Source: a virus
Length of the DNA stretch: 47,364 nt
Direction: 5' to 3' (one strand)
Virus record (IMG/VR): IMGVR_UViG_3300031616_000012
Span: 1-47,364 of that record
The notes beneath the pieces were generated by a model. The model did no database searches and had not been told where the DNA came from. It saw only the letters and a list, made by a program, of their open reading frames with translations. Position 1 is the stretch's first letter. The number at the start of each line of letters is the position of its first letter. Position numbers and translations under genes: made by a program. Shown piece after piece: positions 2,848-19,542 of the stretch.

Positions 2848-3702
2848 GTGACGAACGCCCCGGCCGATCTGCTAGGCCTCCGCTCGGAACTGGAGTCGCT
2901 CACCGGTCTATCCCCTGTGGACATCGGGATCGTCGGGAACGGCGCCCACCAGAAGAGCGGCGGCTACCACGAGGGCAAGGACACCCTGCAGGCGAACGGT
3001 CTGTGGGCCGGGGACTACTCGGTCCGGCTGGCCAGGGACCGCAACGGGTGCACGCTGTCGGCCAGCGCGACGGACATCGGTGCCGGCTGGCGGCAGGGCC
3101 GTACGACGTGGCTGCAGTGGAACAACCTCCTCGCCAACACGCTGCGCGCGAACGATCCGGCCCTGGCCGCGGTCCGGGCCATCAACTACAGCCCGAACGG
3201 TACGACGCGGTGGCGGATCGACCGGGAGACCGGGTGGCGGACAGAGTCGTCCGGGGACACCGTCGACATCCACACCCACATCGAGTTCTACCGGGACACC
3301 GAAGGCCACCGGCAGCAGGCCCTGGACCGGATCGTCGCCCTCGCCCAGCAGGCCATCACCGGGCAGGCCGCCCCATCCTCGGAGGTTGATGTGACACCGG
3401 AAGAGCACACCAAACTGGACGCCGTCTACAACCTCTACGACCAGGTGCAGTTGCCGGGCGGCGGCGCGACGCAGTTCCAGGTCCCGATCACCAAGTTCAT
3501 CAAGGGCATCGCCGCGGACGTCGCCGCGGTCAAGGTCGCGGTGGGTACCCCGGCGCCGATCGTGTTGTCGCCGGAGCAGATCACCGAGGTCGCCGCAGCC
3601 CTCGCCGGGCTCGTCCCGACCCTGGAGGAGTTCCGGGCGGTCGCGGACGCGGCGGTCAAGGCCCGGCTCGACGGGGCGTCGATCCACACCGCAGGCGCGT
3701 AA
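2848..3702 (+). CDS. Putative endolysin / M15-like peptidase
   Basis: A protein of 284 aa. GTG 2848 is chosen because GAGGAGAG lies just upstream and the preceding gene stops at 2837. The N-terminal 160 residues carry GGYHEGKD (H41), SASATDIG (D76) and DIHTHIEFYRD (H142/H144). This spaced His-Asp-His set could ligate zinc as in M15/VanY-type peptidases, and the pattern is common in actinophage proteins in this position. The C-terminal 110 residues are helical and Ala/Val-rich, without a classical cell-wall repeat. No other amidase, lysozyme or peptidase gene occurs in the genome, and the next gene is a small membrane protein, so a role as lysin is the best reading. A tail-associated peptidase is the alternative. 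Confidence 0.55.
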   Translation: MTNAPADLLGLRSELESLTGLSPVDIGIVGNGAHQKSGGYHEGKDTLQANGLWAGDYSVRLARDRNGCTLSASATDIGAGWRQGRTTWLQWNNLLANTLRANDPALAAVRAINYSPNGTTRWRIDRETGWRTESSGDTVDIHTHIEFYRDTEGHRQQALDRIVALAQQAITGQAAPSSEVDVTPEEHTKLDAVYNLYDQVQLPGGGATQFQVPITKFIKGIAADVAAVKVAVGTPAPIVLSPEQITEVAAALAGLVPTLEEFRAVADAAVKARLDGASIHTAGA

Positions 3703-17831: not shown

Positions 17832-18073
17832 TGGGCGGGACGTGGGTGTCGGGCGACCGGCGCCGCGAGGCGATCGTCGAGTTCGTCGCCGAGCACCACC
17901 GGTTGAAGGGCTACGGCCCGACCCTCCGCGAGGTGGCGCGGGCGGTCGGGTTGCGGGCGCACGGCACCGCCCAATATCAGATCGGGGTGCTGGTCGCCGC
18001 GGGTGTACTGGCGCAGGAGCCCGGCATTCCGAGGTCGATCCGACTGGTGGCGCACTCCAGGGAGCCGCTGTGA
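17831..18073 (+). CDS. LexA-type DNA-binding domain without protease domain
   Basis: A protein of 80 aa starting ATG 17831 (one-base overlap TGATG). Its sequence follows the LexA N-terminal winged helix: RRREAIVEFVAEHHRLKGYG, then PTLREVARAVGLRAHGTAQY, QIGVLVAAGVLAQEPG and PRSIRLV. The chain ends where LexA's self-cleaving Ser-Lys protease domain would begin, so a DNA-damage signal could not remove it. It could occupy host LexA boxes or phage operators. Recognition specificity cannot be read by eye. Confidence 0.75.
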   Translation: MGGTWVSGDRRREAIVEFVAEHHRLKGYGPTLREVARAVGLRAHGTAQYQIGVLVAAGVLAQEPGIPRSIRLVAHSREPL

Positions 18074-18456
18074 CGGCGACGCTGCGGGACTCGCCCCGCG
18101 CCCCGTCCTGGGATGGTGCCGCGTGCAGGGGCCACAACCCGGAGCTGTGGTTCCCGAACGAGGCCGGCGGCGCGGACGGGTCGGGAGCGAAGGCGACGGT
18201 TGCGAAGGCCATCTGTGTTGGATGCCCGGTGGTCCGAGCGTGCGCAGAGTACGCCCTGGCGATTCCAGAATTGGTCGGCGTGTGGGGTTCGCTGACCATG
18301 GCCGAGCGGCGGCAGATCCGGGACCGACGTAACCCGCCGACGGGTGTGTGCCTCTGTGGCTGCGATGAGGGGGCTCACAAGCGGCGGTGGGGATCCGGGA
18401 GCCGTAAACGCGGTCCGTGCTCGGGATGTGGCTGCGACGAATACGTGGGCGTCTGA
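18070..18456 (+). CDS. WhiB-family iron-sulfur regulator with extra C-terminal cysteine cluster
   Basis: A protein of 128 aa starting GTG 18070 (GTGA overlap). The four 4Fe-4S cysteines are present as C19, C49-x-x-C52 and C58 within AKAICVGCPVVRACAEYAL, followed by the GVWGS turn (70-74) and basic helix AERRQIRDRR. WhiB proteins act with sigma factor to redirect transcription. After residue 93 there is a second cluster, CLCGC (94-98), HK (103-104), C117, C120 and C122, probably a zinc site not found in short WhiB proteins. It follows the LexA-like gene and precedes the initiator-like gene. Confidence 0.88.
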   Translation: MTATLRDSPRAPSWDGAACRGHNPELWFPNEAGGADGSGAKATVAKAICVGCPVVRACAEYALAIPELVGVWGSLTMAERRQIRDRRNPPTGVCLCGCDEGAHKRRWGSGSRKRGPCSGCGCDEYVGV

Positions 18457-18968
18457 TGGCGTACTGGCTCGACGAGGGATGGCACGGCTGGCCCGAGATC
18501 GACGCAGTTGGCACGGCAGCCGCCGGGCTCTACTCGCGCTGTGGCAGCTACATCGCGCACTCGCAGACCGACGGGTTTATCCCGTTGGCACGGGCGCGCA
18601 TGTATGGCACACCTGAGTGGATCGGGCGGTTGGTCGAGGTCGGGCTGTGGGCGGCCGAGGAGCACGGCTACCGCGATACCCGGTACTTCCCGTTGAACAG
18701 CACCAGGGCGGAGATCGACAGGAGGAAGGCGGACGCGGCGGAGCGGCAGCGTCGGGCCCGCGCGTCACGCGTGAGTCACACAGATGTCACGCGTGACTCA
18801 CGCGTGAGTCACAGTGCCCCTACCCCTCCTCCTAAAGGAGGGAAGGGCAGGGCGCTCACCGCCGTCCCTGACTGGTGCGGACGGTGCCACCGCGATACCC
18901 GCATGGCCGCTGACGATCTCGACCGGTCGGTGCCATGTCCGACCTGCCATCCGAGGAGGACGGCGTGA
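18456..18968 (+). CDS. Replication initiator-like HTH protein containing ori-like repeats
   Basis: A protein of 170 aa starting ATG 18456. The N-terminal 95 residues (YWLDEGWHGWPEIDAVGTAA, SYIAHSQTDGFIPLARARMY and WIGRLVEVGLWAAEEHGYRD) resemble the helix-turn-helix replication-organiser domains of phages that recruit host replication. A basic helix (EIDRRKADAAERQRRARASR) and a Ser/Thr stretch follow, then a zinc ribbon (CGRCHRD...CPTC). DNA for residues about 103-120 carries three phased palindromes. It is the only initiator candidate in the genome. Confidence 0.6.
   Translation: MAYWLDEGWHGWPEIDAVGTAAAGLYSRCGSYIAHSQTDGFIPLARARMYGTPEWIGRLVEVGLWAAEEHGYRDTRYFPLNSTRAEIDRRKADAAERQRRARASRVSHTDVTRDSRVSHSAPTPPPKGGKGRALTAVPDWCGRCHRDTRMAADDLDRSVPCPTCHPRRTA
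18765..18842. other. Candidate replication origin inside the initiator-like gene
   Basis: Three perfect copies of TCACGCGTGA lie at 18765-18774, 18787-18796 and 18798-18807, with centres 22 and 11 bp apart (two and one helical turns). Copies two and three share a larger perfect palindrome, GTGACTCACGCGTGAGTCAC (18793-18812). A pyrimidine-to-purine hairpin, CCCTCCT-N5-AGGAGGG, follows at 18824-18842. The placement is like lambda, whose origin lies within the initiator gene. A codon-level origin of the repeats (SRVSH twice) is the alternative. Confidence 0.5.
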
Positions 18969-19261
18969 TCGAGATCGAGGAGCCACCCGAGGGCCGCACC
19001 TGCTGCTCGACCTGCATGAACCCGTTGACCTGGGTGTATCTGTTCCACCAGCAGCGCACCGTCGCCGTCGTCCCGGTGCACGACATCGACCGGTTCACGT
19101 TCCGGATCCACACCTGCGAGCTGAAGCCCGAACGGACCTGGCGCAACGTCCAGCGGGTCGACCCCAAGACCGCCAAACGAGGCGCCCGACGAGCACGAGC
19201 GGCTCTCGCTGCCGCTGCTGGCCGGCCCGACCAAACACTCACCGAGGAGAGCACGCCATGA
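18965..19261 (+). CDS. Small zinc-binding-type early protein
   Basis: A protein of 98 aa. GTG 18965 (GTGA overlap) is preferred to ATG 18935. RTCCSTCMNPLTWVYLFHQQ and FRIHTCELKPERTWRN give three to four Cys and one His, a plausible zinc site, followed by a basic Ala/Arg helix. It resembles actinophage early proteins of unknown role that follow replication genes. Confidence 0.6.
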   Translation: MIEIEEPPEGRTCCSTCMNPLTWVYLFHQQRTVAVVPVHDIDRFTFRIHTCELKPERTWRNVQRVDPKTAKRGARRARAALAAAAGRPDQTLTEESTP

Positions 19262-19542
19262 TCACAAAGTTCCGGAAGCGGCCCGTCGAGATCGAGGCCG
19301 TACAGCTCACGGTCGAGAACGGCCGGGACGTCTGGGAGTGGGCCAACTCGAAGCCGCTCTACGACCCCGCCGGCAACGTGTGCGGCCTGCGGATCTACAC
19401 CCTCGAAGGCACGATGCGCGCCGACTTCGGCGACTGGGTCATCAAGGGCGTCAAGGGCGAGTTCTACCCGTGCAAGCCCGACATCTTCGCGCTGACGTAC
19501 GAGGCCGTGGCGGGTATCCAGGAGAGCGAGACCGCCCGATGA
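19258..19542 (+). CDS. Conserved phage protein of the PGDYG type
   Basis: A protein of 94 aa starting ATG 19258. KFRKRPVEIEAVQLTVENG, then TLEGTMRADFGDWVIKGVKG and EFYPCKPDIFALTYEAVAG, is a widespread phage and bacterial pattern (beta-rich, with GDWVIKGVKGEFYPCKPDIF as its signature). No enzymatic role is known to me. The family is common next to replication genes. Confidence 0.8.
   Translation: MITKFRKRPVEIEAVQLTVENGRDVWEWANSKPLYDPAGNVCGLRIYTLEGTMRADFGDWVIKGVKGEFYPCKPDIFALTYEAVAGIQESETAR

Follow-up and report, generated by a model that had tools for sequence, protein, structure and literature searches.

A candidate replication origin of phased 11-bp repeats and a C-rich hairpin tract within the initiator gene of a probable actinobacterial phage

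The region at 18764-18852 of a 47-kb viral contig (the window, i.e., the whole stretch of 47,364 nucleotides that was analysed) is a strong candidate for the site at which a temperate-type actinobacterial phage begins to replicate, and it lies inside the initiator gene of that phage. As a class, it is best read as an iteron-type phage origin that is embedded in, or trails from, the initiator gene. An embedded candidate origin had been proposed in a sequence-only reading of the window, and the proposal is now supported by DNA sites that are kept while the encoded peptide changes, as well as by known precedents. The window has a GC content of 69% and carries WhiB-like, large terminase, and tape-measure genes, a combination that points to a tailed phage with an actinobacterial host as its likely source. 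The features on which the argument draws are the following:

17842-18456, forward strand: WhiB-like gene (Pfam Whib, E 3.6e-17), whose TGA shares one base with the initiator ATG
18456-18968, forward strand: initiator gene (170 aa; PHROG 2447 match)
18764-18818, forward strand: iteron array of five 11-bp units (GTCACGCGTGA / GTCACACAGAT / GTCACGCGTGA / CTCACGCGTGA / GTCACAGTGCC)
18765-18774, no strand assigned: palindrome 1, TCACGCGTGA, read S-R-V-S; probability of the motif given the peptide 0.0015
18787-18796, no strand assigned: palindrome 2, TCACGCGTGA, read V-T-R-D in the other frame; probability of the motif given the peptide 0.029
18798-18807, no strand assigned: palindrome 3, TCACGCGTGA, read S-R-V-S, the core of a 20-bp palindrome; probability of the motif given the peptide 0.0015
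18817-18852, forward strand: C-rich tract that pairs with the G-rich stretch after it to form a hairpin, the stem being conserved in relatives

The initiator gene and its embedded array

The product of the gene at 18456-18968, which the sequence-only reading had singled out as initiator-like, is recovered in profile searches as a member of PHROG 2447 (“replication initiation protein”), with a significant match (E 7e-24) across residues 5-120, i.e., over its N-terminal domain. Homologues were detected with tblastn in 327 phage records, and many of them, in Gordonia, Mycobacterium, and Microbacterium phages, carry the annotation “RepA-like replication initiator” or “replication initiation protein”. 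The predicted layout comprises a folded N-terminal domain (approximately residues 1-105), a disordered linker, and a C-terminal CxxC...CxxC segment, with AlphaFold2 pLDDT values of ~97 for the N-terminal domain and 53-67 for the tail. In the model, the N-terminal domain displays the order helix-strand-helix-helix-strand-strand, and its long helix ends near residue 109, where the disordered tail begins; this order of secondary-structure elements suggests a winged-helix-like domain. A fold search against the PDB recovered nothing at E <= 0.001 and thus gives no fold backing for a specific DNA-binding mode, and a sequence search of the PDB likewise found nothing. In Pfam, the protein matched no plasmid Rep family, and neither Phage_rep_org_N nor DUF1376 was hit at E <= 0.001; there was also no sequence-family match to the O-like PHROGs. 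A distant similarity to Phage_rep_org_N-type proteins emerges by profile-profile comparison only (hhalign probability of 97%, and of 84%, mainly over the basic helix, with DUF1376). The C-terminal part (18880-18968) additionally has cysteines paired as CxxC at two places (CGRCH...CPTCH), which may form a zinc-binding module, and similar cysteine pairs are seen in Gordonia homologues.

Profile searches of ~30 other ORFs of the window recognized no polymerase, helicase, or primase, in agreement with the sequence-only reading. The ORFs adjoining the initiator gave no family match, and no neighbouring helicase loader was recognized in the window. The genomic context in phages grown in the laboratory supports a replication module: the initiator homologue of Microbacterium phage Pickles13 adjoins a DnaC-like loader and a DnaB-like helicase, and that of the Gordonia phages has RecE/RecT upstream of it. 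The GC skew of the window is weak, with no clear turning point, and is confounded by all the genes running one way.

Inside the initiator coding sequence, the five 11-bp units start at 18764, 18775, 18786, 18797, and 18808, arranged head to tail, with GTCAC marking the start of each except for CTCAC at 18797. This array is the top-scoring five-unit repeat of period 9-15 within the window, and TRF reports a period of 11 at 18787-18812. Three of the units complete the palindrome TCACGCGTGA; their exact positions bear out the earlier description of three copies with centres 22 and 11 bp apart, and the rest of the window has nothing within one mismatch of the motif. The perfect 20-bp palindrome of the earlier description is also present (GTGACTCACGCGTGAGTCAC, 18793-18812), but it comprises the third TCACGCGTGA copy and the flanking GTGAC/GTCAC rather than exactly two merged copies. 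The array is better described as an 11-bp direct repeat than as palindromes alone, a point that the earlier reading missed. At the protein level, the palindrome DNA encodes residues 103-118, the passage from the folded domain to the start of the predicted disordered tail. No AT-rich unwinding element lies beside the repeats: the array itself has a GC content of 60%, and the lowest 60-bp GC value within 18300-19400 is 57%, at 19233.

The hairpin that had been noted near the palindromes is likewise present, with a core stem formed by 18827-18832 and 18837-18842 around a TAAA loop (CTCCTCC-TAAA-GGAGGG). The earlier reading missed that this C-rich tract and hairpin constitute a second conserved element beside the array. 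We also considered the hairpin as a transcription terminator and rejected this possibility, as no T-run accompanies it and terminator scoring did not pick it up.

When the peptide was held fixed and 20,000 synonymous versions of the gene were drawn using the codon usage of the window, three TCACGCGTGA copies were never obtained (none in 19,375, one in 623, and two in 2). Further, within 44 bp the identical 10-mer is translated as S-R-V-S and, in another frame, as V-T-R-D, and the peptide therefore cannot be the cause of its copies. Selection is acting on the DNA of the array and not on the peptide, as indicated both by the synonymous resampling and permutation tests and by the persistence of the sites past stop codons.

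Conservation among relatives and across initiator families

To obtain relatives independently of the motif, we retrieved genes solely through alignments of the N domain; 80 were left once redundancy had been removed. The tails of this set hold 25 12-bp palindromes, against 6.9 expected from synonymous permutation, and 36 ACGCGT sites against 9 expected. The N and C regions show neither excess, and GTGAC/GTCAC is raised in the C region too, where longer tails extend. The query alignment included some motif-selected phages; leaving these out in a repeat of the permutation test did not abolish the excess of palindromes, ACGCGT, and GTGAC/GTCAC. The general half-site is GTNAC, which is about fivefold denser in the tails (312 per 26.1 kb) than in the N domains (53 per 21.1 kb), with successive copies placed 7-8, 11-12, or 15-16 bp apart and other spacings being rare. 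A GTNAC-N1-4-GTNAC palindrome is found in the tail of 51 of the 80 relatives, as against 2 in the N domain, and the GTNAC copies occupy all three codon phases (88, 131, and 47).

In relatives with short ORFs (13 genes of at most 137 aa, one of which, L264, is cut by the contig end), the array runs on past the stop into non-coding DNA with the same spacing, with 44 GTNAC copies around the stop versus 4 further downstream, and in five cases the stop codon itself overlaps a GTNAC half-site (GTAAC carries TAA). At four loci (L026, L064, L081, and L099), the palindromes lie 3' of the initiator stop. The sequence-only reading had named relatives that keep the peptide and lose the palindromes as the observation that would count against it; the reverse is seen, in that relatives change, re-frame, or end the peptide and keep the phased sites.

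Behind the array, a C-run tract is present in 64 of 78 relatives; the corresponding counts are 0 of 80 for the N domain and 2 of 76 for downstream DNA. The tract is kept in non-coding DNA in 10 of the 13 short-ORF relatives; in the window's own subfamily, it corresponds to the C-rich stem. Tail stems of at least 10 bp occur in 14 of 69 genes, against 0.45 expected under synonymous permutation. A comparison of the window with four relatives (L332, L333, L334, and L335) shows that, at four of the six positions in the core stem, both partners have been replaced and pairing is preserved; this comparison used a centred manual alignment, automatic consensus folding having misaligned the stems.

We found TCACGCGTGA not to be a universal feature of the family. 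Most unselected actinobacterial prophage homologues are without it and bear GTTAC-, GTAGAC-, or unrelated repeats instead, and it is absent from a sample of DUF1376 matches. One initiator clade (L274, L276, L286, L288, L290, and L301; peptide VDGDVDAST) has another palindrome, GTAGACGCGTCTAC, in the same place in the tail and is a candidate for motif-initiator co-evolution.

A scan of 2.9 million viral contigs with TCACNCGTGANTCACNCGTGA returned 11 contigs, with most matches inside initiator-like ORFs just past the N domain. Exact TCACGCGTGA pairs with gaps of 1-30 were found in 113 of these 2.9 million contigs (45 clusters), with centre distances of 11-12, 21-24, and 33-35 bp. Of the 61 distinct spacings, 53 are no more than 2 bp away from a multiple of 11.4 bp, where 37% would be expected, while a shuffled control palindrome, TGACGCGTCA, gave 27 clusters with 16 of 34 spacings in phase; thus, TCACGCGTGA pairs are helically phased and the control is not. 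Many of the carriers are initiator genes (PHROG 2447, 3926, 9474, 1408, 16167, 4880, and 10469; Pfam DUF1376 and Phage_rep_org_N), and carrier representatives match replication initiation, replisome organizer, DnaD-like loader, O-like, and primosomal PHROGs. Among ten ORFs sampled from the minor clusters, six matched replication families and about four did not. The motif is spread across many initiator families, which the earlier reading had also missed. An idealised 34-nt array used as a BLAST query against 50,697 phage records gave its best matches (E 2e-4) in the initiator genes of the Gordonia phages Zipp, Verity, and Zitch, which RefSeq labels “replication initiation protein”.

In a scan of a genome collection, about 14 of 29 matches proved to be C-termini of ribosomal protein S9 (TRDSRVKERKKYG), mostly from Nitrospira, and were set aside as a coding coincidence; the remaining matches include prophage initiators. 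The S9 C-terminus encodes the same 21-bp pattern (L133, L138, L139, L141, L143, L146, L148, L151, L154, L156-L158, and neighbours) and is a useful false-positive class for motif scans. At two loci (L054:11523-11554 and L060:4144-4175), a phased TCACGCGTGA pair without an adjoining initiator lies between genes, immediately ahead of a small ORF (MSDGLDKWRSWPVAPEDERPK...). Another (L089:2064-2156) has four regularly spaced TCTCACGCGTGAGA palindromes at the edge of an unrelated ORF; these are different and longer and may be a repressor operator set. Pickles13 has two more 11-bp-spaced GTCAC unit pairs, GTCACGAGTGAGTCACGCGTGAC and GTCACGAGTGAGTCACGCCGTGAC (L212:1597-1619 and 3012-3035, at ~37.3 and ~38.7 kb), which lie ~11 kb from its initiator gene and are possibly a second origin like SPP1 oriR.

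Proposed mechanism and alternative explanations

The most parsimonious model resembles lambda or SPP1. We envisage that dimers of the N-terminal DNA-binding domain of the initiator would bind the 11-bp units, one per helical turn and all facing the same side of the DNA, and that the bound initiators would form a compact nucleoprotein complex. Such binding might strain the neighbouring DNA, and the adjoining C-rich tract or hairpin could be opened or extruded as a single strand to provide the entry point for a helicase and a primase, supplied by the host or by unrecognised phage genes. No AT-rich element adjoins the array; the C-rich tract or hairpin would be the candidate for strand opening or priming, and host replication proteins would presumably be recruited. 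Several results weigh against the origin reading, namely the missing AT-rich region, the GC skew with its lack of a clear turning point, the limited occurrence of the exact TCACGCGTGA unit among homologues, the PDB fold search that gave no match, and the minor-cluster ORFs that fell outside replication families.

The placement of the sites and their distribution bear on other readings of the array. Operators are commonly built as palindrome arrays in or next to the gene of a regulator, and autoregulation by the initiator is common in iteron replicons. The array might then be an operator through which the initiator or another phage regulator controls the initiator operon, with replication starting elsewhere. 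We regard this as unlikely: the sites lie 300 bp into the gene or past its stop rather than at a promoter, no sigma-70-like promoter is found near the array, and no promoter or terminator signature accounts for it. Moreover, the companion C-rich tract and hairpin are conserved, and the array is linked to replication initiators of several families. Operator and origin roles could also coexist, as at lambda ori. The recurrence of VTRD/SRV peptides in many carriers could instead mean that the peptide is what is conserved (VTRD/SRVS-type repeats in a disordered tail that binds a partner, e.g., a helicase), with the palindromes as a by-product of codon usage. We give this very little credence. The same DNA is encoded in two frames within one gene, synonymous permutation fails to reproduce the sites, GTNAC occurs in all codon phases, and the array persists past stops as non-coding DNA; a peptide repeat as the sole cause is ruled out by the two frames, the permutation tests, and this persistence.

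Recognition of the units by a host DNA-binding protein, and not by the phage initiator, would explain why phages from different phyla have the same 10-mer in their initiator genes, and it fits the occurrence of TCACGCGTGA pairs alongside initiators with only distantly similar N domains. However, the variants (GTCAC, GTTAC/GTAAC, and GTAGAC) track families of close initiators, as expected if the cognate initiator co-evolves, and we know of no host factor with a TCACGCGTGA-type site; we therefore consider a host factor an improbable reader of these units. Under the origin reading, it is conceivable, and we put it forward tentatively, that one origin code is common to tailed phages from several bacterial phyla. 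This would consist of GTNAC half-sites on one helix face, at 11-12 bp, followed by a C-rich strand (with a GGG-run, G-quadruplex-capable complement) or a hairpin in place of an AT-rich element, situated within or directly after the genes of several initiator families and, in certain phages, ending the protein. Were such a code real, origins would be predictable from sequence for hundreds of phages.

Relationship to known origins

The origins of actinobacterial phages are mostly unknown, and more than 300 annotated actinophage records (Mycobacterium, Gordonia, Streptomyces, Microbacterium, and Arthrobacter) carry an initiator homologue. If the origin reading is true, the origins of such phages could be read from sequence, opening the way to minimal replicons and a test bed in lab-grown phages, and the array would illustrate clearly how DNA signals can constrain a protein-coding sequence or even bring it to an end. 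Origins inside initiator genes are already known, e.g., in lambda O (PMC7466680), SPP1 gene 38 (PMC6316719), and repC (PMC3155836). In the open-access literature, the TCACGCGTGA 10-mer was found in no phage-origin paper among the results listed, which is weak evidence given that scope, and we found no description there of a GTNAC array with 11-12-bp units that is accompanied by a C-rich tract, recurs in several initiator families, and has stop codons built from its units; this widespread signal appears to be undescribed.

The lambda ori lies in the middle of gene O and consists of iterons and an AT-rich region (PMC7466680). Like the window, it presents initiator-bound repeats in mid-gene, so that origin and initiator form one cassette, and its repeat copy number varies among relatives, lengthening the linker (PMC7466680). 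However, lambda has 4-6 longer iterons followed by the AT-rich region, whereas the window has 11-12-bp units, one per turn, and a C-rich tract and hairpin with no AT-rich region. In SPP1, oriL similarly places direct repeats within the gene of the origin-binding protein (gene 38, replisome organizer gp38), the host replisome is recruited, and a second origin is located elsewhere (PMC6316719), to which the second 11-bp-spaced pair of Pickles13, ~11 kb from the initiator gene, may be likened. SPP1 differs in having an AT-rich element and the neighbouring loader gp39 and helicase gp40, none of which was recognized in the window. The window protein is a PHROG 2447 initiator. The array in its gene would function like a lambda/SPP1-type embedded origin, but we do not class it as one because an AT-rich element and an adjoining loader were looked for and not found.

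In the repABC plasmids, oriV also lies within the initiator coding sequence, inside repC, as shown by silent mutations (PMC3155836), although that origin has no iterons, a large A+T-rich region, and an unrelated protein (PMC3155836). The RepA-like origins of the mycobacterial prophages Miko, Rachaly, and Jeeves can be likened to the window by description. In these prophages, an actinophage initiator is necessary and sufficient for replication, and the origin is suspected to lie in or beside repA (PMC7157519). Their RepA proteins are of the plasmid type (pMSC262 family), and no repeats were detected by the authors (PMC7157519).
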